A stretch of DNA of 46,798 bases from Salinisphaera sp. (GTDB taxonomy: Bacteria > Pseudomonadota > Gammaproteobacteria > Nevskiales > Salinisphaeraceae): contig JAQIBT010000138.1 in NCBI GenBank assembly GCA_027858915.1, forward strand, positions 1-46,798, read 5' to 3'. This document shows, in pieces, positions 13,485-45,549 of this stretch. The position numbers and the translations under genes are program-made. The notes below the pieces were generated by a model. It searched no databases, was not told where the DNA came from, and worked only from the letters and a program-made list of their open reading frames with translations. Within the stretch, counting starts at the first letter, position 1, and each line of letters opens with the position of its first letter.

Positions 13485-13513
13485 GGAAAAAGGAAGGCCC
13501 CTCGAAAGGGGCC
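13485..13513 (-). terminator. Rho-independent terminator of the leader-repeat gene block
   Basis: On the minus strand GGCCCCTTTCGAGGGGCC (13513-13496) is a 6-bp GC stem with a 6-base loop, followed by TTCCTTTTT. It lies 10 bases after the stop of the DUF6927-like gene, closing the 13.5-16.3 kb minus-strand block. Confidence 0.8.
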
Positions 13514-13523
13514 TGGATGTGGA

Positions 13524-14039
13524 TCAGACTGCTGGTTTGATCGACGCGATGCACCGGCGTGGAATCCGCCAGTGTGAACCGTCGTCGGCGCGACCAATCA
13601 GCGGCTTCTTGGAGGCCAGCGTCACCGTGTGCGGCACACAGCCCTCGGTGAGCGTGACCTGGTCGCCGATAGATGCCGCGGTCACCGTGCGCTTGAGGCG
13701 TTGTTTGTCGGCATGACGCCGGCGAACACGCGCTCGCCACGGTGCAGCGAACTCACTGTCGGGCACCGGCGCCTCGTCGAGATAGGACGCCGGGCACGAG
13801 AGCTCGGCCGGCCCCATCGACTCGGTAACGGGTTTGTAGCCCCAACCGTAACCGGGATCGCGCACCATCAGATATGCAACGATGAATCTACCAAACTCAG
13901 GGTATTTCAGGTTTTCCTGAATGGTCCAGAGCACGTTTCCCCGCACGCATTTTCGATGCGTGCGAAGGTTCGGGTCGCCTTCGGTGACGTGTTTAATGAG
14001 TTCGGTCTTCGTCTGGCCTTTTGTGATTAACCATCCCAT
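13524..14039 (-). CDS. DUF6927-like ICE accessory protein
   Basis: 171 residues with a start typical of this family (MGWLITKGQTKTELIKHV) and the blocks RGNVLWTI, GYGWGYKPVTESMGPAELSCPASYLD. The function is unknown; such genes sit beside radC-like and anti-restriction genes on conjugative elements. It is the last gene of the block and has leader copy 1 (14040-14161) directly before it, with AGGAGC 6 bases before the ATG. The start is clear because the leader family always ends at this position. The name is from memory of the family pattern. Confidence 0.7.
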   Translation of the reverse strand: MGWLITKGQTKTELIKHVTEGDPNLRTHRKCVRGNVLWTIQENLKYPEFGRFIVAYLMVRDPGYGWGYKPVTESMGPAELSCPASYLDEAPVPDSEFAAPWRARVRRRHADKQRLKRTVTAASIGDQVTLTEGCVPHTVTLASKKPLIGRADDGSHWRIPRRCIASIKPAV

Positions 14040-14161
14040 GGTGCTGCTCCTGTAAAAAAGGGGAACACCGGAGCCCGTCAGGGATACTGTGTTCCCCCGC
14101 GGGTGGATGAAGACAGCTGAAACTGTCCGATATGGCGTATGAAACGCCCGGTGGATGCGGT
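14040..14161 (-). repeat. Structured leader repeat, copy 1
   Basis: In minus-strand (transcript) order: a hairpin with arms at 14123-14127 and 14112-14116 (GACAG/CTGTC), CCACCC, then a stem pairing 14089-14097 with 14060-14068 (GGGGAACAC/GTGTTCCCC, 9 bp), TTTTTT, and AGGAG before the ATG. The proximal alternative stem is weak in this copy (GGGA/TCCC). See the finding on all five copies. Confidence 0.8.
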
Positions 14162-14614
14162 CTATATCAGTCCGCGCTCAGCCATCGACGTCGTGCTTTC
14201 ACCCACAATGAGATGATCCAGCACGCGAATGTCGAACAGGGCCAAAGCCTCTGTGAGCCGACGCGTGATGTCACGATCAGCCCTGCTCGGCTCGGCCACG
14301 CCCGACGGATGGTTGTGGTAGAAGATAACGCCGGCAGCGTTGTTTATCAGGCACTCCTTGGCGACTTCCCGCGGATAAACCGCGGAGCCGTCGATAGTGC
14401 CGCGGAACAGGTCCTGTTTGCCGAGAACCCGGTTCCGATTGTCGAGAAAGATCACGCCGAAGATCTCGTGCTCGAGGCCGGCAAGTTGTAGGCGTAAATA
14501 GTTACGCGTGGCGGCCGGATCAGTCAGTACGTCACGATCGGTGATACCGCGCTCGATGATCTCGATGGCCTGCTGGATGATGCCGGATTCTTCCGGCGTG
14601 ATGGATAGCAGCAT
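14162..14614 (-). CDS. radC: RadC-like JAB-domain protein
   Basis: 150 residues spanning the JAB/MPN metalloprotease-like domain (PF04002). It has the JAMM motif YHNHPSG-x3-PSRAD and the preceding E in LEHEIFGVIFLDNRN. RadC-like proteins are frequent on plasmids and ICEs. Despite the old name, a repair role is unproven, and the domain may act as a peptidase or in DNA processing on entry. The helix-hairpin-helix domain of chromosomal RadC is absent. AAGGAG lies 6 bases before the ATG, within leader copy 2. Confidence 0.9.
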   Translation of the reverse strand: MLLSITPEESGIIQQAIEIIERGITDRDVLTDPAATRNYLRLQLAGLEHEIFGVIFLDNRNRVLGKQDLFRGTIDGSAVYPREVAKECLINNAAGVIFYHNHPSGVAEPSRADRDITRRLTEALALFDIRVLDHLIVGESTTSMAERGLI

Positions 14615-14721
14615 GGTTTTGCTCCTTAAAAAAGGGGCACACGCCGCACCCTGCGGGGCGATGCGTGCCCCGCAGTGGGTCGAAAATACTCGCCTGGAAA
14701 CGAGCGGTTAATGGATGAGAC
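14615..14721 (-). repeat. Structured leader repeat, copy 2
   Basis: Small hairpin arms are 14701-14704 and 14689-14692 (CTCG/CGAG). The shared arm around 14665-14674 pairs either with 14652-14658 (TGCGGGG/CCCCGCA, 7 bp) or with 14634-14640 (GGGGCAC/GTGCCCC, 7 bp). The second choice is followed by TTTTTTAAGGAG and the ATG. It is the cleanest example of the two competing stems. Confidence 0.8.
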
Positions 14722-15165
14722 TCAATCGATGGCCGCGAAAATAGCCGGGCCTTCGGCATGGTCGCCGGCATAATCTCGCAGCCGATCGAACATATCCTTG
14801 TGCCTCGACCTGCGTGTCTTCCAGACCAACGCATTGAGCGCGTAAAGCGTCGCGACGATACCGGCGGCATCGGGCGACATCTGTCCGTTGTAGAAGTTGC
14901 CGCTGCAGCGGATCCGGATCGTCTCGCAATCGAGCTCGGGGGCCATGTAGAAGCCGCCGTTGCTCAATTCGTAAAACGTCCAATAGCCGCCGTCGTAATC
15001 CGCGGCCAGCTCTTGCATCCAGTTAAAGACCAGGGTTTCGCCGACCCGCATGTCGTGGCCGAAAAACCGTGGCAGAAAGTGCATGCGCTGATCCTCGGGT
15101 ACGGCAGTCGCGGTGGTAAGAATGGATTGACCCGTGACCGAGTCGTCATCGATTGCATGGTTCAT
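14722..15165 (-). CDS. ArdB/KlcA-type anti-restriction protein
   Basis: From ATG 15165 (MNHAIDDD) the protein has 147 residues and matches the ArdB/KlcA family: LPRFFGHDMRVGE, FNWMQELAADYDGGYW and FYELSNGGFYMAPE. These proteins protect incoming DNA from type I restriction without mimicking DNA. The start at 15165 is fixed by the leader repeat (CCAAGGAGCATCACC before the ATG); an upstream start at 15198 would lie inside it. The place next to radC suits a set of genes expressed early after transfer. Confidence 0.9.
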   Translation of the reverse strand: MNHAIDDDSVTGQSILTTATAVPEDQRMHFLPRFFGHDMRVGETLVFNWMQELAADYDGGYWTFYELSNGGFYMAPELDCETIRIRCSGNFYNGQMSPDAAGIVATLYALNALVWKTRRSRHKDMFDRLRDYAGDHAEGPAIFAAID

Positions 15166-15263
15166 GGTGATGCTCCTTGGAAAAGGGGCAGATACCACGC
15201 CGCACGGGGTGGAACTGCCCTGTGGTGGGTGAAAGAAAGGCCCCGCGTCAGCGGGCGTCGTGG
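15166..15263 (-). repeat. Structured leader repeat, copy 3
   Basis: Small hairpin: CCCGC (15242-15246), loop, GCGGG (15251-15255). The shared arm at 15215-15224 can pair with the CACGGGG block (about 15203-15209) or with 15186-15191 (GGGCAG/CTGCCC). The latter stem leads into TTTTCCAAGGAG and the ATG of the anti-restriction gene. Confidence 0.78.
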
Positions 15264-15701
15264 TTAAAAAACCAGAACGGGCGGCAGATCGAAATCCCGA
15301 GCAATGAACTCGAGGCCATCGAGCATCTCGGCCTGGAACACGTCGAGCGAACGCCAGGGTCTGTGGCTCGCGTCCATTGCATGAAAATCATGCTTGTTCT
15401 GGACTGCGGCCAAGAACGCGGCGTCCTCGCGCGTGAGCCGATCCACGTTGAACACGTGCCTCAGCACGTCCGGACGACAGACGAATAACGTCGTAACGTC
15501 CATGGTGGCCACCTATGGGTCATCCAGCAGGTAGTCGTTGTCGAACAGGCCAATCGCACAAGGGCGATCAATAGCAAACGGATCGCCCGCAATCCTCTGG
15601 TGATAGCAGACACGGCCGTCGATGACGCCCGGTGGCCGCCCAGCGACCACGAAATGCTCGTAGACGTTATGCAGGATCGATTCATAGTCGAGGGTTCACA
15701 T
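15264..15701 (-). pseudogene. Paralogue A of an unknown ICE protein, two in-frame stops
   Basis: The leader places the start at ATG 15701, but codon 2 is TGA (15698-15696). The frame then reads TLDYESILHNVYEHFVVAGR... through CAIGLFDNDYLLDDP, meets TAG at 15515-15513, and continues without a shift as VATMDVTTLFV... to PPVLVF (stop 15264). It aligns across its length with paralogue B (ILDRVYAHFIVNRRPAG, CAIGIFDTEGRLDREP). The function is unknown. Two stops in one frame suggest decay, though the open part from 15512 (82 codons) could still be translated from GTG. Confidence 0.75.
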
Positions 15702-15802
15702 GGTTCGCTCCTATACAAAAGGAAGGGGCAAACCACGCCCCTGCGGGCGCTGTAATGCCTCGCAGTGGGAAGGAAGTTCTCGCGTGAGCGAGTGGCTATA
15801 AA
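15702..15802 (-). repeat. Structured leader repeat, copy 4
   Basis: Small hairpin: CTCGC (15779-15783), GTGA loop, GCGAG (15788-15792). The shared arm at 15756-15765 pairs proximally through CTGCG/CGCAG, or distally with GGGGCA at 15725-15730 (one mismatch). TTCCTTTTGTATAGGAG then leads to ATG 15701, which is followed at once by TGA. Confidence 0.75.
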
Positions 15803-16278
15803 TCAGCCGGCGCCGAGATCACTCGGTGAACACGGCGAAACGAGATCTTGTTCGCCGGCAAAACGATCAAGCCGGTGCGCCAATTCCTCGATGAAGAACG
15901 TGTCAAAGGGGCGATCCGACCGCGCCGCGTTCTTCACACCAGGTCGTGCTCGTCCTGAACACCGGCCAGAAAGCCAATATCAGAGATTGTGAGCTCGGAC
16001 TGGCCGAAGACATCGCAAAGTGCGTCGAGAGCTTGATCGTAGAGATCGGAAACCGCCAGGGTGACCAGCGGTTCGCGATCGAGTCGTCCTTCGGTGTCGA
16101 AAATGCCGATCGCACACGATACAGGGCGACCATCGTCATCGTGGCTGTGATAGATACAGCTGGCTTCGCCACTCAGACGCCCAGCGGGGAGACGCCCAGC
16201 GGGGCGTCGATTAACGATGAAATGGGCGTAAACTCGGTCAAGAATCCACTGGCGATCCAGTGGTTCGGTATCAGACAT
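15803..16278 (-). pseudogene. Paralogue B of the same unknown ICE protein, late frameshift
   Basis: ATG 16278 starts MSDTEPLDRQWILDRVYAHF and the frame runs for 114 codons to DEHDLV, then TGA. The homology to paralogue A continues in the next frame (KNAARSDRPFDTFF...) to a stop at 15803, so one base appears missing near 15940 (GTGTG for GTGGTG). A 15-bp unit is duplicated in frame at about 16176-16205 (RLPAG repeated), relative to paralogue A. The translated 114 residues may still be a stable protein. No known family recognised. Confidence 0.72.
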
Positions 16279-16380
16279 GGTGTTTCTCCTACGAAAATGG
16301 GAAACACCAAGCCCGCACGGGGGAATGATATTCCCCGATGGGTGGATACAGATCGCCGCAGCGATGAGTTGCGAAGGATG
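16279..16380 (-). repeat. Structured leader repeat, copy 5
   Basis: Small hairpin: ATCGC (16352-16356), CGCA loop, GCGAT (16361-16365). The arm TTCCC (16331-16335) can pair closely with GGGAA in 16321-16326 (ATT/AAT extended, up to 8 bp) or distally with 16299-16303. ATTTTCGTAGGAG then precedes ATG 16278. It is the promoter-proximal copy of the block. Confidence 0.78.
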
Positions 16381-16532
16381 GATCGAGCCTGAAGGCGCCT
16401 CTGCTCACGATCCGAAGAGGCTTCAAGGGCCGCTTTATACCCAGCGGTAGGGTTCGCAGCTATAGATTGACTAAAAGCATGCTGCCGTGTCAACGGCTGT
16501 GCATCTTTCCGCGGCGCTGTCGAAGCGTTCAA

Positions 16533-16577
16533 ACATCGATCGTACGATGTGCCATACTAATACGACGTAAAAACGTC
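16533..16577 (+). promoter_or_regulatory. Inverted repeats upstream of the Xre/RES pair
   Basis: ACATCG-ATCGTA-CGATGT (16533-16550) and GACGT-AAAA-ACGTC (16564-16577) are both perfect inverted repeats in the 60 bases before the antitoxin ATG. This is where an autoregulatory toxin-antitoxin operator would be expected. Confidence 0.55.
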
Positions 16578-16593
16578 TTTATAGAGGGGCGTT

Positions 16594-16974
16594 ATGTCCG
16601 AAACACGACAGCTTGCGCATTCGGCGCTCTACGAACGGGTCATCCAGGATGACCGCGTGCTTTCGAGCATTCTGGCCGAGGCGCTGCATGTGACCAAGGC
16701 CGAACTGGCCTCCTCGCTGGGCCTGCCGGCCGAAACGCTGCGAAAGCGTGAGCGCGAGCAAAGCCGGCCAACACAGCGGCGCATGCGCGATGTGGTCGAG
16801 ATCCTGAACCGCGTGAGCCGTTGGACCGGCTCGGATATGCAGGCCTATGCCTGGTACCGCAGCGAACCGTTGCCATCGTTCGGTGGCCGGACGGCCTCGG
16901 ACCTGGTCGCTGCCGGCCTCGCTGATGCGGTCAAGACCCACCTGTCGCGAGTCGCTGTGGGTGGCTTTGCTTAG
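16594..16974 (+). CDS. Xre/ParS/MbcA-type antitoxin
   Basis: A 126-residue antitoxin of the DUF2384 class. It has an N-terminal helix-turn-helix region (LHVTKAELASSLGLPAETLRKRE) that would bind the inverted repeats upstream, and a C-terminal toxin-binding part ending SRVAVGGFA. GAGGGGC precedes the ATG. It is the standard partner of RES toxins and overlaps the toxin start by one base (TAGTG). Confidence 0.9.
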   Translation: MSETRQLAHSALYERVIQDDRVLSSILAEALHVTKAELASSLGLPAETLRKREREQSRPTQRRMRDVVEILNRVSRWTGSDMQAYAWYRSEPLPSFGGRTASDLVAAGLADAVKTHLSRVAVGGFA

Positions 16975-23260: not shown

Positions 23261-26211
23261 GCCCGTGCCTTCTCGATGGGGTGGCCGGATTCTCGCGCGC
23301 CGTGCGCGAGCGGCGCCGACGACGGGTCGTCTCCGGCGACCGGCTTCATGCCGCGCGCGGCGTCCATCTCGGTCGCGATATGCAATGCCGCATCGAGTTC
23401 GCTGCACCCCAGTTCGTCCATGAGGCGCTTGCGTGCGGCTTTTTCCTCGCCCTCGGTTCCGGCCAGTGCCAGATATCGACTGGGCGGCACGATACGAAAC
23501 AACGCCTCGATCCGATCGGCCAGTACGACGCCTTCGGTGTACTGATGCTGGGCCTTGGTCGCCGAGGCCAGCAGTTTCTTTTGATCGTCGGTGAGCGTCT
23601 TGAAGCGCGCCAGCTGCTCGATCTCGTCGGGCGGTGCGACCAGCACGATGTACCACTCGATCATGTTCAGCAGGCGCGTGGCCGTATCCGGAAAATCCTC
23701 CAGGTTCTGGGTCGCCAGCCAGATCCAGTAGGACAATTTGCGGCCCATCTTGCCGGCCTTGACCAGATAGGGAGACAGCAGTGGGTTGACGGTGACCACG
23801 TGACACTCGTCGATCACCTGAATGATCGGGCGTCCCGAATACTGATCGCGCTCGGCCAGCCCGATGATGATGTGGGTCAGACTGATCACCGACAGCGCCA
23901 ACTGGGCCTCGTAGCCGTCGCGGGCATAGTGGGCCAGATCGACCACGGTCACGTCACACTCCGGCCAGGCGGTCCCCTCGCGGTTGAAAACCTGGCCGTC
24001 GAAGCCGTCGCAAAACAGGCCCATGGCCTCCGCCATGTTATGGGCTTTTTCCCGACGCGAAGCCGGCATGTCGTCGTGCGTGGACAGCGCCAGCAACGCG
24101 TCGCGCACATCCTCGGCCAGGCACTGCCGGTGCGCCGCCGCTGCGGTGCGGGCCGCGGCATAGATCGCATCGCGCACCAGGCGGCGATCGGCACGCCGGA
24201 AATTGTGTTCTTCCTCGACCTCGCCGCCGGTGATCATCAGCCGCGCGGTGATCTCCATTTCGCCCAGCAGATCACGTTCGCCGTCGCCGTCGTCGTCATC
24301 GGCGTCGTCCTCGATATCCAGCGGCGCCGGATCGTCGGAATGCAGCGCGTCGTCGCGATCATAGGCATAGCGAGCCTGGCGTTCGCACGGATCCAGCAGA
24401 CGATGCGCTTCGGCAAACAGGGGCAGCGGCGGGGCAGCGCCGGGCGCCAGCCGCACCCGATTCACCGACAATCCGTGGCGTTCGAGATCTTCAGCCAACA
24501 GGCCAAAGCTGTTGCCGACCTCGATGATGAATAGTCGGGGTTTACGCAGGGCCATGACCTGGGAAATGATCCCGTTCAGGGTCGCCGACTTGCCGGCGCC
24601 CGTCGGCCCGAAGATAAACATATGGCCGTTCTTGGTGCGATCCTCGAGACTCAGCGGATCGAAAGAGAACGTGCCGCCGCCGCGGTTGAAAAACGACAGG
24701 CCGGGATGCTGGGTCCCACGCGAGCGGCCGAAGAACGGGGTCAGATTCGCCAGATGCTGGACGTAGGCCAGCCGCGTGTACCAGCCTTGCTTGTCCTTGT
24801 CCGGATCGAATGCCATCGGCAGCCAGCGCAGATAGGTGTTGAGCGGCGCGATCTCGTCGGCGGCATTGACCGGCTTGAGCTTGGCCTGTTGCAGCTGGGT
24901 CGTCAGGCCGAGCGTGCGCCGGCGCAGATCGAGCGCGTCGTTGCCCCGCACGTAGAAGGTCAACGCGGTCTTGTACAGCTTGTGCTGGTGGGCCAGCATC
25001 TCGCGTGCGATATTGCAATCCTTGCGTACCTGGGTGGCATGGACGGAATCGCCGTGTGCCTTGTTGCGCAACGTGTTGATATGGTCTTCCAGGGGCTCCT
25101 GGGGCACGGCGACGAGGGTCATCGCCATGATCACGTCTTCGGGTAGCCGGTCCATGACAGCGTTATAGGCTTTGCCACCGGCGCGCGGCATCTCGCCGGT
25201 CACATGACCCACGTCCGGCGCGCGGCGCAGCTCCTCGACCGCGATCGCGCGATGCGGCAGGCCGTCGAAGTACCACAGGCCTGACGCCACATCCCCGACC
25301 GGGCAGTGATGAATCAGATCCTCGCCCAGATCGTAGTGGGCGAGTTGTCCGATCGCTTCGTCGCCGGGATAGGCCACCCGGTCATAGAACGCCTGCGGAT
25401 TGTCGGGATCGGTGGCCGGTGCCGGGTTGAACCAGCGCAACAGCCAGCGATGAAACGCCGCGCCGTCCATGCGTTCGAGCCGCAGGCCCGTTCCGGCCAG
25501 GGCTTCGGCCAGGCGCTCGTACAACTGGTTGGCCTCATCGGCCGAGCCCACGCCATCGGCATCGGAGCCCAGCCAGCGATACAGCACCAGGCGCGTGCGC
25601 CGGGTCTGGCCGCGCCAGCGGGTCTGGGTGACCTGCTGGTCATGGAACAGCCCGCCGGGCCGGGCGAGCGTGCGCAGGTGGGCGGCCATGCCGTCCAGCC
25701 AGGCGCGCGTAAATGTCGTCTCGCGCAGGCCCTCGGCGGCGTAGTCATCAAGCGCCTGGATGTCTTCGGCCGGATCGGTGTCGTCGCGGGCATAGATCTG
25801 GACCACCCAGGGGTGGTGATCGTATTCCGGTTCCATGGCGTCCTGGAACGCCGCCTCGATCTGATCGCGGATATCCGCCAGCGCCTCCTGTGACCGCCCC
25901 TCGGTGGGTACGGGCCAGACTTCGGCGGCCAGACCGACCGAGACGCCGTCCTCGAGCAAGAAACAGCCCGAGTCGGCCAGATACTCGACCCACGGCAGAT
26001 AACGCGAAAACGACGGGCCGCGCTTGTAGCTCGCCTTGATCTCGCGGTTGGTGGGCGGTCGCCCTCGAGGCTGGCCGCGTGCGCCCGGCACTAGCGAGGC
26101 GGCCGCCGAGGGCGGCGACGGGTTGCTGTCCGGCGTGGGCGTAGACGGTTTCGCGCTCGAGCCGGGCACTAGCCGATAGAGCGGGCCGAGCAGGGTGTCG
26201 ATCGCACTCAT
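23257..26211 (-). CDS. VirB4/TraC-like conjugation ATPase, PFL_4706 family
   Basis: A 984-residue ATPase of TIGR03744 that powers assembly of the type IV secretion channel and pilus at the inner membrane. Walker A (FGPTGAGKSATLNG) lies near residues 533-545 and Walker B (IIQVIDECHVV) near 795. An acidic insert (DDADDDDGDGERD) lies near residue 640. The N-terminal half carries the domain that binds the VirB3-like partner. The start overlaps the lipoprotein gene by 4 bases. Confidence 0.93.
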   Translation of the reverse strand: MSAIDTLLGPLYRLVPGSSAKPSTPTPDSNPSPPSAAASLVPGARGQPRGRPPTNREIKASYKRGPSFSRYLPWVEYLADSGCFLLEDGVSVGLAAEVWPVPTEGRSQEALADIRDQIEAAFQDAMEPEYDHHPWVVQIYARDDTDPAEDIQALDDYAAEGLRETTFTRAWLDGMAAHLRTLARPGGLFHDQQVTQTRWRGQTRRTRLVLYRWLGSDADGVGSADEANQLYERLAEALAGTGLRLERMDGAAFHRWLLRWFNPAPATDPDNPQAFYDRVAYPGDEAIGQLAHYDLGEDLIHHCPVGDVASGLWYFDGLPHRAIAVEELRRAPDVGHVTGEMPRAGGKAYNAVMDRLPEDVIMAMTLVAVPQEPLEDHINTLRNKAHGDSVHATQVRKDCNIAREMLAHQHKLYKTALTFYVRGNDALDLRRRTLGLTTQLQQAKLKPVNAADEIAPLNTYLRWLPMAFDPDKDKQGWYTRLAYVQHLANLTPFFGRSRGTQHPGLSFFNRGGGTFSFDPLSLEDRTKNGHMFIFGPTGAGKSATLNGIISQVMALRKPRLFIIEVGNSFGLLAEDLERHGLSVNRVRLAPGAAPPLPLFAEAHRLLDPCERQARYAYDRDDALHSDDPAPLDIEDDADDDDGDGERDLLGEMEITARLMITGGEVEEEHNFRRADRRLVRDAIYAAARTAAAAHRQCLAEDVRDALLALSTHDDMPASRREKAHNMAEAMGLFCDGFDGQVFNREGTAWPECDVTVVDLAHYARDGYEAQLALSVISLTHIIIGLAERDQYSGRPIIQVIDECHVVTVNPLLSPYLVKAGKMGRKLSYWIWLATQNLEDFPDTATRLLNMIEWYIVLVAPPDEIEQLARFKTLTDDQKKLLASATKAQHQYTEGVVLADRIEALFRIVPPSRYLALAGTEGEEKAARKRLMDELGCSELDAALHIATEMDAARGMKPVAGDDPSSAPLAHGARESGHPIEKARA

Positions 26212-41629: not shown

Positions 41630-42097
41630 CTACTCCACAGGCGCAAGCACCGAACCTCGACCTAATCTCGGCATCAATTCGGCATATAGGGATTTTCGCC
41701 CGATGATGACAGCGAGCATTGGTCGCTTGTCCCGACGCTTCGCCGATAAGCGGTTCCATTCCGATCTATCGAGACCAGAAGGATGAGGATGGTCTTCCGG
41801 ATGGGTGTGCCATTCACCCAGATAGCGAACGGTTCCCTGACTCGCCGTCCATCGAGCCAGGGCAATGGCTTCGTGGCCAAATGGCATCCGCTCGAACAGG
41901 TAGCGGAATCGCTTGTCGCATACCGTGGGAACCGTTGCTTGCTCAATGAGCATATGGGTTCCATGAACCGAGCCGAGCAGAAGCCCACCAGCTTCGCAGT
42001 CAACATCCCGAACTTGAACATGTTGATTGAATGTCTCCAGCGAGGAGTCCGAAAAATGCAGCAGCGTCCTCCTGTCGTCAGTGGCCCAGGCACTCAT
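41630..42097 (-). CDS. cap3: Cap3 JAB/MPN deconjugating peptidase of CBASS
   Basis: 155 residues from ATG 42097, which overlaps the cap2 stop (ATGA); upstream ATGs at 42106 and 42115 are possible. The zinc-binding JAMM motif is complete: Glu in CEAGGLLLG and EWHTHPEDHPHPSGLDRSEW. Cap3 cleaves Cap2-made conjugates from the CD-NTase and so regulates the system. It is the last gene of the operon. Confidence 0.92.
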   Translation of the reverse strand: MSAWATDDRRTLLHFSDSSLETFNQHVQVRDVDCEAGGLLLGSVHGTHMLIEQATVPTVCDKRFRYLFERMPFGHEAIALARWTASQGTVRYLGEWHTHPEDHPHPSGLDRSEWNRLSAKRRDKRPMLAVIIGRKSLYAELMPRLGRGSVLAPVE

Positions 42098-43725
42098 GAA
42101 CTGCATACAGGACATTCCGGGTCCCGCAGCGGGTCGCAGTCGGGTGTGGCAGGTTGCTGAGCGCGGTCGATCAGCCGCGTTCGCAACGCAGGGGAATAGA
42201 CGCCGTTGACCCAGTCAAGCGTCATCTCCGCGCCCAGGCTGGCAGCGTGCACGGACACCGAAGCGGAGAATGGTACGTACAAACCCTCGCATCCATGCCC
42301 CGCCAAGATGGCAGGAAGAGGGTCAAGGGTGGAACGGAGTTCACCTCTCCTGTTGCTATGCCAAAGACATCGAAAGCACGCACCAGATGCATTCGTTCTC
42401 AGGAGCGCGCGGATAGCCGTTCCTGGTCCCTCGATCCAGACCGAAAGCATGGGCATCGGAGGTGGATAGTGGTCGCATAGCCAATGCCCGAGGGATTCTT
42501 CTCCGGTGGCATCTATAATTAGGTCTAGCTCCCCCAGTTGAGCCTGCCGAACATCCACGGGGAGAGCACGAATCTCGGCGCCTGGGGCCAAGCGCTTGAG
42601 TTCTTTCGCCATGGCCTCGGCTTTGTTCGACAACAGGTCCGGGAACCCTAGGCGATGACGACCGATGTTTTGCGGGAGAAGAAGGTCGAAATCCACCAAC
42701 GTGAGTTTCCCGTCGCATGTCCCCGCTCCAGCTTTGACCAGCATGTCCGAAAGATATCCACCGATCGTGCCACATCCCACGACGGCCAAGTTCTTACCTG
42801 CAAGCGTTTTTGATTTGGGTATGTTCCGCTGGGCAAGGTACCGGTCGTCAATTCTGACGACCGAGACGGGCATCGCCTTCAACCCGTAGGTTAAATCCCT
42901 GCGATCTGCGAGCTTGTTCTTTTGGACGGGGCGTTGGCGGTCATAGAGAGCCGCAAAGCCATATGTTATTAACGGAGACTCGATGACGATCAGAACGCCG
43001 TTGGCCTTCTTCTTTTCCCCTTCCTTGATACGTTCGTGAATCTTGCGACGACACCGAGAGTCCAGGGTGCTTTGCCAAGTCAAGATATCCCCAACTGTTT
43101 CAGGAGGCCAATGGCTGGTCAGAGGCCGTGGTTGAGCGCTTGTCTTTACCCGGTAAGTCAGCATCGTTTGATCGGTGGCTTGGTAACCGAGCGACTTCAG
43201 CTTCTCAGCTGTTCGATCAACGTTGTCGGTGATGAACCACAAAGGGCTTCCGTTGATCTGCGCGACTATGCAGTTCTGTCGCCCTAGGTCTTCGCCCTGC
43301 ATGTCCACGAAGCAAAGCAAGCCATTCCAATAGGCAAAGAACTCTTCCGCAAGGTTTTCAATCATCTCCCCCTTTACAATCTGCCCGAGCAGGACGGCCG
43401 CGCGTTGCAGGCATGCCAGCGACTGTCCAATAGGGTCGTAGATGTCCAGAACGACCGTACCCTTGCCGAGATAGCAAAGTTCACCACCGGCACCAAGATG
43501 AGGAACCGCTGCGGGTAGCTCAGGAGAAATTTCCAGCAGCCGGATGCGAGGCAAGTCGAAGAACGTAGGGTCGAGCTCAACTTCGCATGGACAGCCCTTG
43601 TCCGCTTGGGGTGGGGTCAACCGTCCATGCAATCTAAACCAACCGTCATCCGCCTTGCCAACAAACTCGAAACCTTGCTGCTTGAAGGCTTCAATCATAT
43701 CTTCGATCGTTGCGCCGCTGCTCAT
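42094..43725 (-). CDS. cap2: Cap2 E2-E1 fusion of type II CBASS
   Basis: 543 residues. The N-terminal E2-like domain has its Cys in [15 protein letters not shown] (about residue 84). The C-terminal E1/ThiF domain has the nucleotide-binding [30 protein letters not shown], and a catalytic Cys in [10 protein letters not shown]. Cap2 attaches the C-terminal Gly of the CD-NTase to a target by a ubiquitin-like mechanism, which primes second-messenger synthesis. The start overlaps the CD-NTase stop by 4 bases. All active residues seen are intact. Confidence 0.94.
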
Positions 43726-44864
43726 CCAGCCTTCGTTCGTCCGATAAGTTCGCTCGGACCAGTCGTTGCTGGAACTGCAGCAATGGTAGCGGCGACGGAT
43801 ACCACCTTGACCCGATTCGGTTCGTTCGGAAAGCGAGGGCCGAATTCACCCTGCATCCAAATGCAGGCATGTGAGGGGTTACCGGCGCGGGTGGCTCCAA
43901 GAAGCACTTTCTCAAGTTCTTCAAACGCTTTTGCCGCGTTTTCGACACCCGCCTTACCAAGTCGCTCCGTGAGCGACTCAGATTCCTCTACGGGGTTATT
44001 CACGTCTGCCCGTAGCCGAGCTGGTAATGCCGCGACGACATCCAGCAGCGCGAGGTCGTCGCGCCGATCTCGCTTCTCAAAAAGAGGAGCAGCGGCGGCC
44101 ATCAGCAAGATCGAAGCAGGCCCCCCGCTGGACCACTTCCAATCACGAAACGCCTTCAAGTAACGAATCACGCGGCGCAACTGCTCCCCCTTGGCCTCCA
44201 CCTCACCCAAAAACCATTCCTTCACGGGCCTAGGATCAGAGGACATCCAATTGCATTCACGATGAGCCAGGAGCACCTTGTCAGCGGGCAGCGCCGTCCA
44301 AGCGTCCTGCTCCGCCATGTTCACTGCTTCCATCAGCGAGTCGTAGCCATATCGCTCCATCGAAGCCTTGGCAAGAGTGACAAATTCCTCGTTGGGAATG
44401 GCGTACAGAGGAATATCAATGTGGGCATCCGTGGCAATGACGATGCGGATGCACGTCGGTTTATCGGTGATGAGCTTCCACCGCTTTTCCTCAGCCAGCG
44501 GCTTCAAGGCTTCTTCTGCAGCGGTAAAGAACACCGTCGCCGCGATGCTGGGGCGCTTCGTTTGCGAAACGAAACTCAACGGCAGATAGCATCCGTCATC
44601 GACATCCGCCTGTTGAGGGTGTTGTGCTGGAGAATTCAGCGTCTTGTATGCCCACGACCCTTGAGTGAAAAAGCGCGGCTGCGGTACGTTTTCCGTATAC
44701 CCGCTTGCCCTCAGCACGCCGGGAAGACCCGTGCGCAGGCAATCTCTGACATCCGTGCGTGCGCTGGCGATCCAGGCGCGTTGTTCAGGCGTCAGGTCCA
44801 GCCTGTCATGCATGCAGGATTCGTCGTCAACGGTGGTAAAGAAAAGCGGGCTCAAGTTCAGCAT
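43722..44864 (-). CDS. dncV: DncV-like CD-NTase (cGAMP synthase) of CBASS
   Basis: 380 residues from ATG 44864. It aligns by eye with Vibrio cholerae Dnc[16 protein letters not shown], the catalytic [20 protein letters not shown] (third Asp) and [11 protein letters not shown]. DncV-type enzymes make 3',3'-cGAMP on phage infection to activate the CapV phospholipase. The C terminus ends in Gly (IGRTKAG), as Cap2 requires. The ATG is at the very end of capV and also in frame with an upstream open stretch to 44960, which is rejected as it lies in capV. Confidence 0.93.
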
Positions 44865-45549
44865 GCGGCCTCCGGAACATTCTTGTTGGGGCCGTGATAG
44901 AAGATGGGGCGCCGGCCTGGTGCGCTCGAAACGGTTGGAAAAGAGGATCGCCAAGCGCACGCTGCGCCGCGTGGCTGCCGCGATCCTTGAGCGTATTCGT
45001 GGAGCCTATGGAAACCCGATCCAGCGCCTTCACGTCCTTGCTCTGATCAGGAGTCGCCTTGTCGTCGATCTGGAAGTAATCGTTTCCCAGCGACTGCTGC
45101 AGCATGTAGTCCACCGACGACTCCTGTGCTGAGATCACGAGGTCGAAGAGTCCCCCGCGCCACTTACCGAATCCGCGATCAAGGCTGGCGCCGCCACGAA
45201 CGGTCGCACCGATCGTCATCGTGCCTATGGCGAGGACCCGAACCTGCGCACCCTGTTTTGGCGCGAGGAACGTCCTGACTTCGTGCAACCCGAACAGGCC
45301 AGGGGCGTTGCCCACCAATCCCCCATCTGCGAAGACACCGCGGTCGTTGCGTGCCAGAGGAAAGTAGACTGGCGCGGCGGCGGTAGCCAACGCAACATCG
45401 ACGATCCTCATGCGGTGATCCAACTCAACGGAAGGATCGTGAGGCGTTTTGAAAAACTGCCCGCGACCTGTCGAGTAGTTAACTGCAGGCACTAGAATAC
45501 GGTGCTTCAGGTCGCCGATCGTGGTCCCTTGGAAGCGCTCGGTCAGGAC
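44827..45549 (-). pseudogene. capV: CapV patatin phospholipase, 5' part lost, 3' frameshift
   Basis: CapV degrades membrane phospholipids when cGAMP binds. What remains begins at TERFQGTTIGDLKHR next to the transposase end and includes GQFFKTPHDPSVELDHRM, VALATAAAPVYFPLARN and the catalytic Asp in ADGGLVGNAPG. The roughly 100-130 N-terminal residues with the nucleophile GxSxG are absent. Near 44905 one C seems lost from CCCC: restoring it gives [21 protein letters not shown] with a stop at 44858, overlapping the CD-NTase start. The uncorrected frame runs to 44827. The effector should be inactive. Confidence 0.85.

Follow-up and report, generated by a model that had tools for sequence, protein, structure and literature searches.

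The window analysed here, a stretch of 46,798 nucleotides of Salinisphaera sp. DNA, contains five copies of a structured leader of about 70 nt, each made up of four arms and each with its 3' end at the start codon of a gene. The features, all on the minus strand, are listed in the order of transcription, with R1 and R2 denoting the two covariance models used.

16397-16493, minus: candidate array start region, with TTGACA at 16493-16488, a CTATA-like box at 16466-16461 and two small conserved hairpins
16276-16346, minus: leader 5, first in transcription (54.1 bits with R1, 64.3 bits with R2); arm 1 (GGGG plus loop) 16336-16324, arm 2 16323-16312, arm 3 16308-16299, linker 16298-16290, arm 4 (GGAG...ATG) 16289-16276
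15934-16278, minus: ORF of 114 aa behind leader 5, without a Pfam family
15699-15771, minus: leader 4; 1:2 + 3:4 pairing retained, 1:3 pairing weak
15163-15231, minus: leader 3; arm 1 15221-15210, arm 2 15209-15201, arm 3 15196-15185, linker 15184-15177, arm 4 15176-15163
14722-15165, minus: antirestriction protein, KlcA-like, PF03230 (E 5.9e-28), behind leader 3
14612-14681, minus: leader 2; arm 1 14671-14659, arm 2 14658-14648, arm 3 14643-14634, linker 14633-14626, arm 4 14625-14612
14162-14614, minus: RadC-like JAB-domain protein (E 1.4e-42), behind leader 2
14037-14107, minus: leader 1; arm 1 14097-14084, arm 2 14083-14074, arm 3 14069-14060, linker 14059-14051, arm 4 14050-14037
13524-14039, minus: DUF6927 protein (E 4.8e-12), behind leader 1

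The initial annotation had recognized the five minus-strand copies and their common layout (a CCC box, a GGGG arm, a proximal partner, a distal partner, a linker, GGAG and the ATG), and both stand, as do its gene labels DUF6927, RadC and antirestriction (Pfam Antirestrict); the ORFs behind copies 4 and 5 have no Pfam match. These five leaders are the only matches in the window with either model (R1 to E 1; R2 to E 0.03). The gene behind leader 4 is broken, its ATG being followed by TGA as codon 2, and the ORF behind leader 5 may be shortened, since the S. japonica ORF in the equivalent place (stretch L046:5224-5691) encodes 155 residues rather than 114. The candidate array start region aligns across five related elements and may act as a promoter; the spacing between TTGACA and the CTATA-like box exceeds that of a standard sigma-70 promoter, and the region is absent from the output of our sigma-70 scan.

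Arms and alternative pairings

Arm 1 can pair with either arm 2 or arm 3, and arm 3 is also complementary to arm 4, which contains the ribosome-binding site and the start. Because arms 1 and 3 each have two partners, the 1:2 + 3:4 and 1:3 folds are mutually exclusive, and we predict that the former hides the ribosome site (OFF) and the latter leaves it free (ON). The alternative 7-bp partners in copy 2 lie where the initial annotation had placed them (proximal 14658-14652, distal 14640-14634), and its view of two competing stems as a conserved switch-like element is supported by the further copies and the covariation described below. It overlooked the third pairing, of the distal arm (arm 3) with the Shine-Dalgarno and start region, and this is the pairing that makes the device translational. 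Two of its details are revised: the proximal stem of copy 1 is not weak (-16.6 vs -17.0 kcal/mol), and copy 4, which was credited with the same two-way choice, has a weak 1:3 pairing (-10.1) that is predicted not to form.

When 12 leaders are trimmed close to the box, all 12 have 1:2 + 3:4 as their minimum-energy fold; with 13 nt of upstream sequence added, copy 1 has 1:3 as its minimum-energy fold and the Shine-Dalgarno pairs with the upstream letters. Single copies from the window fold only moderately better than their shuffles (z -1.7 to -3.9). Metabolite riboswitches are marked by conserved unpaired letters of an aptamer; in the leader, conservation, judged by eye, lies mainly in the arms, the GGAG, the ATG and a 5' A/C-CCC box, and few unpaired letters are conserved.

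The leader beyond the window

Model R1 was built from 11 leaders, four from the window and seven from stretch L006, and it recovered copy 4, which had been excluded from the building set, at E 1.5e-5, together with leaders in other families at E <1e-5; covariance model E-values are rough. Model R2 yields 185 copies in 43 stretches, providing the further copies that had been sought, although nearly all of the stretches were chosen because they held matches and the copy counts are no measure of prevalence. The best 150 of the 185 matches constitute our alignment (A9), from which two were left out of the arm tests as unusable (n=148); the leaders represent non-independent lineages. A start codon (ATG or GTG) forms the 3' end in 148 of these best 150 matches, and in annotated records 24 of 26 matches stop exactly at the annotated start. 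Match lengths are mostly 58-100 nt, with two of about 150 nt that have a long linker. Distance to the stop codon of the upstream gene varies (10-90% range 12-298 nt by a crude ORF measure), and we have set aside coupling to that stop.

No Rfam 15 family has a gathering-score match in the window, and at E up to 10 the region 13900-16500 contains two sub-threshold matches only; in nine related stretches the matches are confined to one intron and to radC RNAs, which lie beside leaders and in one case overlap a leader. A literature search over titles and abstract openings, in which subscription papers are mostly uncovered, returned no description of the leader among the matches listed, and so lends weak support to its absence from the literature.

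Genes behind the leaders include the STY4534/DUF3577, RadC, ArdC, KlcA, RecT and SSB families, and many are of unknown function. A census of 132 of the 143 downstream ORFs (ten longer than 450 aa and one overlapping ORF were omitted) shows STY4534/DUF3577 to be the commonest family (15/132, from tables that list the first 25 of 40 Pfam families and the first 25 of 58 NCBIfam families); one SSB gene and three RecT genes are also headed by the leader. The presence of antirestriction, RadC and DNA-handling families agrees with the earlier suggestion that the downstream genes suit establishment after transfer. A MOB_H relaxase gene is present in 20 of 28 leader genomes, and in 16 of those 20 it is on the same strand as a leader and no more than 100 kb away. 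It fits better as an element marker than VirB4 TIGR03744 alone, which occurs in six of 17 leader genomes (class sample) and in 24 of 369 overall.

The initial annotation had also raised the possibility of a terminator-type attenuator, in which 1:3 and the following U residues would form an intrinsic terminator and 1:2 the antiterminator. The U run immediately follows arm 3 in leaders 1, 2 and 3, and follows it after one A in leader 5, and there are eight terminator-like sites in 13500-16700 vs 2.9 in shuffles, with two of them within leaders 2 and 4. However, a run of at least four U's is present at that place in only 53 of 148 leaders, so the tract is not conserved as a general device would imply, and the hairpin directly abuts the ribosome site and leaves 3:4 pairing unexplained. 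We consider attenuation of transcription very improbable.

Covariation of three helices

RNAalifold on a raw MAFFT alignment reports six pairs only; the arms are misaligned by MAFFT, and alignment was therefore done by arms. For 1:2 and 3:4, 89.0% of alignment cells are paired, compared with 50-57% in slid versions, and two-sided changes are present in 16 of 19 pairs (349 such cells vs 112 when shuffled), although these counts lean towards both helices because the alignment was fitted to, and the matches picked by, the 1:2 + 3:4 model. The 1:3 pairing is absent from the covariance model, and at fixed alignment register its support is modest: 70.9% of cells are paired vs 66.2% in shuffles, and neither the pair types (24 vs 24.2) nor the two-sided pairs (6 vs 6.7) rise above shuffles.

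A partner-permutation test using 130 leaders of less than 90% identity and 2000 permutations reveals covariation in all three helices. Own partners pair more stably than permuted ones for 1:2 (-15.3 vs -11.7 kcal/mol, z -18.7), 3:4 (-13.4 vs -9.8 kcal/mol, z -18.1) and 1:3 (-14.0 vs -9.7 kcal/mol, z -20.4), with 0/2000 permutations reaching the observed value in each case, and at 70% identity (n=30) the z values are -10.5, -8.8 and -10.0 respectively. Control arm pairs give z values of -0.4 (1:4), -1.2 (2:3), -2.2 (box arm:3) and -4.2 (2:4), the last two also being below zero. The arms, their covariation, their placement on start codons and the set of genes that they precede can thus be read from the sequences themselves.

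The permutation results bear on a simpler account, constitutive damping, in which 1:2 and 3:4 are static hairpins that hold translation down and 1:3 arises only because arms 1 and 4 resemble each other. The modest 1:3 support at fixed register is in its favor, as are the far greater stability of the OFF fold than of 1:3 alone and the gonococcal parA leader, which acts as a repressor and for which no alternative fold was found (PMC8716806). But the covariation of 1:3 is as strong as that of the other two helices, and it persists among leaders with identical arm 4, where 136 of 186 comparisons, with four ties, show better pairing of arm 1 with the arm 3 of its own leader; the converse test, with the same arm 1 start and own arm 4, gives only 32 of 58. 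Moreover, arm 3 pairs better with arm 1 than with arm 4 in 82 of 148 leaders, and we regard static damping as unlikely.

A single-stranded-DNA promoter or origin (Frpo/ssi-like) on the transferred strand, the other device entertained initially, would accommodate a hairpin-rich segment ahead of antirestriction genes and the same-strand MOB_H relaxase noted above. Against this, there are no consensus sigma-70 sites in 13500-16700 (1.3 in shuffles), and arm 4 consists of the Shine-Dalgarno and AUG, so that its pairing is meaningful in mRNA only. Sense-strand G-U cells also outnumber A-C cells in 3:4 (110 to 56) and 1:3 (182 to 78), although this excess is absent in 1:2 (54 to 59). We find this reading extremely unlikely.

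Predicted folding

Isolated leaders are predicted to be OFF-dominant in 137 of 148 cases and 1:3-dominant in nine, and the Shine-Dalgarno has a paired probability of 0.82, a moderate excess over the 0.65 at 521 other GGAG-ATG sites. When leaders are folded at growing lengths, 1:2 is predicted in 148/148, then 1:3 in 124/148, and then 1:2 again in 139/148; the full order of 1:2, 1:3 and 1:2 + 3:4 is followed by 115 of 148 leaders vs 30 of 148 swapped controls, and by 93 when 30 nt of upstream context is included. The OFF fold exceeds 1:3 alone in stability by about 18 kcal/mol, and the ON state would therefore need either an agent or a kinetic window. For truncated RNA, it is on average 3.8 kcal/mol costlier to hold arm 2 open (the 1:3 state) than to hold arm 3 open (the 1:2 state), and because 1:3 is favored in only 23 of 148 leaders with an arm so held, its lead in the growing-length series is probably due to an inner hairpin in which arm 2 takes part.

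Discussion

We propose that each leader is probably a cis-acting translational RNA switch, and that the switches gate establishment-type genes together, with 1:2 + 3:4 as OFF and 1:3 as ON; this assignment of states and the order of folding are predictions only. The stable 1:2 + 3:4 fold would cover the Shine-Dalgarno, and often the AUG too, and pairing of arm 1 with arm 3 instead would release arm 4. During synthesis 1:2 would form first and be displaced by 1:3 once arm 3 is made, and the ribosome site would then emerge unpaired and open to capture by a ribosome or factor; mRNA left uncaptured would refold to OFF. A competing protein, an RNA or ribosome occupancy are candidate triggers. As the device recurs ahead of every gene in a probable single transcript, the gene set could be gated jointly, and we infer a single transcript with expression at transfer.

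T4 gp32 and RegA control mRNAs by binding to them, and the leader RNA could similarly be bound by a repressor that the element encodes and that recognizes RNA or ssDNA; this repressor, perhaps STY4534/DUF3577, would be titrated off by single-stranded DNA. The prevalence of STY4534/DUF3577 behind leaders, along with the SSB and RecT genes found there, is consistent with this. However, DUF3577 has no convincing match among PDB sequences (best E 0.17), the conserved unpaired letters of a putative binding site are few, and the window contains no clear DUF3577 (best tblastn E 0.089), although the same genome has a DUF3577 gene behind a leader on contig C104 (stretch L037). No DUF3577 relatives are found in viral contigs. 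As a separate explanation we judge a titrated repressor unlikely, but such a protein is equally a possible trigger for the translational switch.

More tentatively, the leaders could form an undescribed RNA family that defines the regulon for establishment in conjugative elements of the MOB_H type, both within Gammaproteobacteria and outside the class. The switch would then be coupled to transcription and pass through three stages (1:2, 1:3, 1:2 + 3:4), permitting translation only from new mRNA unless a factor holds it open, and the gonococcal parA and traH switches would be outlying members. Conjugative elements must time the production of antirestriction and DNA-repair proteins; ssDNA promoters and repressors are known devices for this, as are the EGeRS1 sequences, whose action is unexplained. 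If our proposal is correct, a common translational switch at each gene is a further solution to this problem, and the leader would allow the establishment gene set to be read from sequence alone. It also provides a defined RNA with which to seek the trigger, and perhaps the trigger of both gonococcal switches too, and is carried by two studied elements, pKLC102 (bases 1-100000 of 103532 examined) and ICEhin1056 (1-50000 of 59393).

Comparison with known systems

Translational attenuators of the erm/cat type also have four arms and hide the ribosome site by 1:2 + 3:4 pairing, but their inducing fold is 2:3 and depends on a ribosome stalled on a leader peptide, whereas the alternative here is 1:3. 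The radC RNA motif (RF01754) is proteobacterial and is located ahead of radC and DNA-related genes; it differs from the leader in its 149-nt consensus (40 bits) and has no match in the window. We note that radC RNA, found in one of 274 genomes, lies just upstream of the leader at four of four copies in one genome and overlaps one of them (stretches L072 and L136). The STAXI motif (RF01728), with tandem pseudoknots near ssb, topoisomerase, antirestriction and integrase genes (PMC2864571), is similar in its gene neighborhood but likewise has no match in the window.

In pLS20-family Bacillus plasmids, several establishment operons, including antirestriction, share a structured upstream region, EGeRS1/EGeRS2; EGeRS1 is multi-branched and blocks read-through, whereas a strong promoter and the regulator Reg characterize the p576 type (available text of PMC8708921). 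The common structured region ahead of several establishment genes in one element is similar to the arrangement here, but EGeRS1 is 420-751 bp long, whereas the leader is about 70 nt and abuts each start codon, gene by gene.

The closest precedent, compared by description only and as far as the available text of PMC8716806 extends, is found on the gonococcal genetic island, in its traH and parA RNA switches, where the second of two stem-loops covers the Shine-Dalgarno and start and control of translation has been demonstrated. A Neisseria genome was sought by a DNA-uptake word, with one or two stray matches in 32 of 185 genomes, none of them Neisseria-like, and the sequences searched yielded none from the island. 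At traH, a single alternative stem-loop frees the Shine-Dalgarno and start (PMC8716806, citing Ramsey 2015) and arises if the first stem cannot use its upstream leg; we take this to mean that the inner legs pair. Removal of the inner legs from the parA leader increases lacZ expression more than 10-fold in E. coli; in gonococci the increase is about 400-fold, for which the legend gives p = 0.14, and Western blots agree with these results. Weakening of the first parA stem abolishes expression, with no alternative fold found (PMC8716806). The leader resembles these switches in its two stem-loops, the second over the Shine-Dalgarno and start (here from predicted folds and covariation), and in its location on a mobile element with a relaxase (TraI in the island). 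The gonococcal switches differ in being two single cases at transfer and partition genes, with no regulon-wide array described in the available text, and, unlike traH as we understand it, where the inner legs pair, it is the outermost arm 1 that pairs with arm 3 in the leader.

Anatomy and predicted folds of the leader

All five minus-strand leader copies described in the initial annotation are present in the window, and the family now extends far past it. The features are as follows, each leader being a covariance-model match.

14037-14107, minus strand: leader 1; DUF6927 downstream
14612-14681, minus strand: leader 2; RadC downstream
15163-15231, minus strand: leader 3; antirestriction protein downstream
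15699-15771, minus strand: leader 4; broken gene downstream
15513-15701, minus strand: broken gene of leader 4; codon 2 is a stop, with another in-frame stop
16276-16346, minus strand: leader 5; uncharacterised 114-aa protein downstream
16397-16493, minus strand: block ahead of leader 5, conserved in an alignment of five elements; two hairpins

Each leader has four arms. Arm 1 consists of GGGG and some nine further letters (e.g. GGGGAACACC), and arm 2 of CCCC with a mirror image of the box; arms 3 and 4 resemble GGTGTTCCCC and GGAGCAACACCATG, respectively. Because arm 1 mimics arm 4, both are possible partners for arm 3, and arms 2 and 3 are rival partners of arm 1. The predicted OFF fold, 1:2 with 3:4, is the minimum-energy fold of all 12 leaders folded (five from the window and seven from Salinisphaera japonica), and with longer upstream sequence it recurs in the window copies except copy 1, which takes the 1:3 fold with its Shine-Dalgarno sequence paired to upstream letters. 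In 148 of the 150 matches aligned (the best 150 of 185), arm 4 coincides with the ribosome site and start codon. The switch proposed in the initial annotation is borne out in kind and wrong in level: control is predicted to be translational and not transcriptional, with a run of at least four U residues following arm 3 in only 53 of 148 leaders.

Covariation of the three helices

The strongest of the tests re-deals arms among leaders and needs no alignment of pairs. Helices 1:2, 3:4, and 1:3 each form far better with their own partners than with re-dealt ones, and the covariation proposed earlier as a check is found in all three. Helix 1:3, which is absent from the covariance model, ranks first of the three at 90% and at 80% identity, and second at 70%. 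The control arm pairs gave z values at 90% identity of -0.4 (1:4), -1.2 (2:3), -2.2 (box arm:3), and -4.2 (2:4), and because the last is not nil, shared composition may lie behind part of the signal. When only leaders sharing one arm 4 are compared, the native arm 3 pairs better in 136 of the 186 ordered comparisons, with four ties; the converse test, of the own arm 4 among leaders with the same arm 1 start, is weak (32/58). Pair counts in the alignment give very strong support for 1:2 and 3:4 and moderate support for 1:3, for which two of five measures are not above shuffles.

Folding order and a proposed mechanism

The order of the two folds is predicted from equilibrium folding of 148 leaders at growing lengths, which reports thermodynamics at each length and not a kinetic simulation. 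RNA ending at arm 2 forms 1:2 in every leader (148/148), RNA ending at arm 3 forms 1:3, the predicted ON fold, in 124, and 117 have it just before GGAG; on reaching the AUG, 139 have 1:2. Full switchers number 115 of 148, versus 30 when the 5' block comes from another leader, and drop to 93 with 30 nt of upstream context. With upstream context, the switching order persists in three of the five window leaders (1, 2, and 5); the upstream letters change the fold of leader 3, and leader 4 remains 1:2. When arm 2 is held open, a more stringent test, only 23 of 148 leaders favour 1:3. We propose that the leader acts as a translational switch whose open state would have to be captured while the RNA is being made or shortly afterwards, or else kept open by a factor. 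The sequences show the arms, how they covary, where they sit, and which genes follow; the OFF and ON folds and the order in which they form are predictions, and the single transcript, the trigger, and the timing are inferred. At leader 4, 1:2 and 3:4 are retained and 1:3 is weak, which fits a need of working genes for 1:3, albeit in a single case. By eye, its broken gene resembles the leader 5 gene as a paralogue, and the S. japonica stretch has no counterpart between the corresponding genes.

A single transcript starting upstream of leader 5 is likely because the preceding stop codon lies 54, 40, and 32 nt before leaders 1, 2, and 3 and a promoter scan of 13500-16700 gave no promoter-like site. 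The block upstream of leader 5 has TTGACA and CTATA-like words, conserved in five elements, at a long spacing, and one of its hairpins stays paired, by eye, despite changes (GCCTC/GAGGC, GTCTTG/CAAGGC). Small hairpins with short T-rich tails lie between stop codon and next leader in the window (15242-15255) and, by eye, in the S. japonica gaps; terminators, processing signals, or stability signals are possible.

Distribution and genes

Seven consecutive leaders precede partly shared genes in S. japonica and in a MAG labelled Lysobacterales. The covariance search suggested at the outset found further copies in other elements. The first model, R1, was trained on 11 leaders (four of the window's five and seven of S. 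japonica) and matched 6 of 17 genomes in the family sample and, at E <=0.01, 17 of 369 genomes and 15 of 271 genera in the class sample, the own genome counted in both. The second, R2, was trained on 82 matches, one of which (opposite strand of stretch L071) is probably spurious, and at E <=0.001 it matched 13 of 398 genomes in the phylum sample, one outside the class; the three samples partly overlap. R2 gives 185 matches (E <=0.03) across 43 stretches, almost all of which were retrieved because they contained matches. The leader is apparently a new RNA family; cis translational switches as a kind are already known.

Among 132 downstream proteins scanned, the commonest are DUF3577/STY4534 (15), RadC (8), and the ArdC N-domain (7), followed by DUF6927 (4) and by RecT, Antirestrict, DUF6094 methyltransferase, and DUF6573 (3 each); singles include SSB, YqaJ, and DUF932, and many have no listed family. 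The antirestriction, RecT, SSB, and methyltransferase functions suit establishment, the time at which they would act. By eye, the 15 STY4534/DUF3577 proteins look like OB-fold, SSB-like proteins; a PDB sequence search with them gave no convincing match.

Elements carrying the leader

The window, from a 4.3-Mb genome, is an integrative conjugative element or a piece of one, since it has transfer genes (TraD TIGR03754, VirB4 TIGR03744, and TIGR03752, 03755, and 03757). We take this set to mark the MPF_G type, which is consistent with the typing of pKLC102 and ICEhin1056. A CBASS-like defence operon lies near topoisomerase III (41630-45492, minus strand), with phospholipase effector, nucleotide cyclase, E1-E2 (Cap2), and JAB (Cap3) members, all strongly matched by PADLOC.

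Named carriers have 26 matches (E <=0.5): ten in pKLC102, four in pUM505, six in ICEhin1056, one in a Shewanella baltica plasmid, and five in a Burkholderia glumae plasmid. Compared by eye, 24 finish precisely on an annotated start, which in one case is that of an RGI-predicted feature and not of a CDS; of the other two, one lacks an annotated gene and the other is out by 5 nt. All ten pKLC102 matches fall within 40.8-48.8 kb, with none in 50-100 kb, and precede STY4534, a helicase, and genes annotated hypothetical. Those of ICEhin1056 precede STY4534, DUF3560, radC, two unknowns, and a zincin-like protein that we read as ArdC-like. A short leader-preceded ORF of pUM505 (98503-98679; 23504-23680 of stretch L092) is labelled OXA-573 by RGI; its place in the array suggests that the label is wrong and that it is an element gene.

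The relaxase family PF07514, a marker of MOB_H, occurs in 20 of 28 leader genomes versus none of 14 control genomes. Relaxase and leader share a contig in 18 of the 20, and in 16 one strand carries both, with the nearest leader 2-100 kb away. The other two are G277 and G719, where the distances are 284 and 674 kb and the strands are opposite, the G719 pieces at that place being broken. VirB4 TIGR03744 is found in 24 of 369 genomes overall, including 6 of the 17 leader genomes among them.

Comparison with known systems

The radC RNA motif (RF01754) lies just upstream of a leader at four of four copies in one genome (stretches L136-L139, also L072; R2, E 7.5e-7 to 0.0068), once overlapping it and once with a long linker, and because of this position it may be an upstream companion module of the switch. 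Among the published systems found, the nearest are the traH and parA switches of the gonococcal island, which follow the same logic and are experimentally repressive (PMC8716806). For parA, that study found no alternative fold and a loss of expression when the first stem was weakened (PMC8716806). Its primer nc093F1 reads like the leader's linker plus arm 4, which is a lead only. EGeRS1 of pLS20 is, among the systems found, the closest example of a single structured sequence common to establishment operons (PMC8708921).
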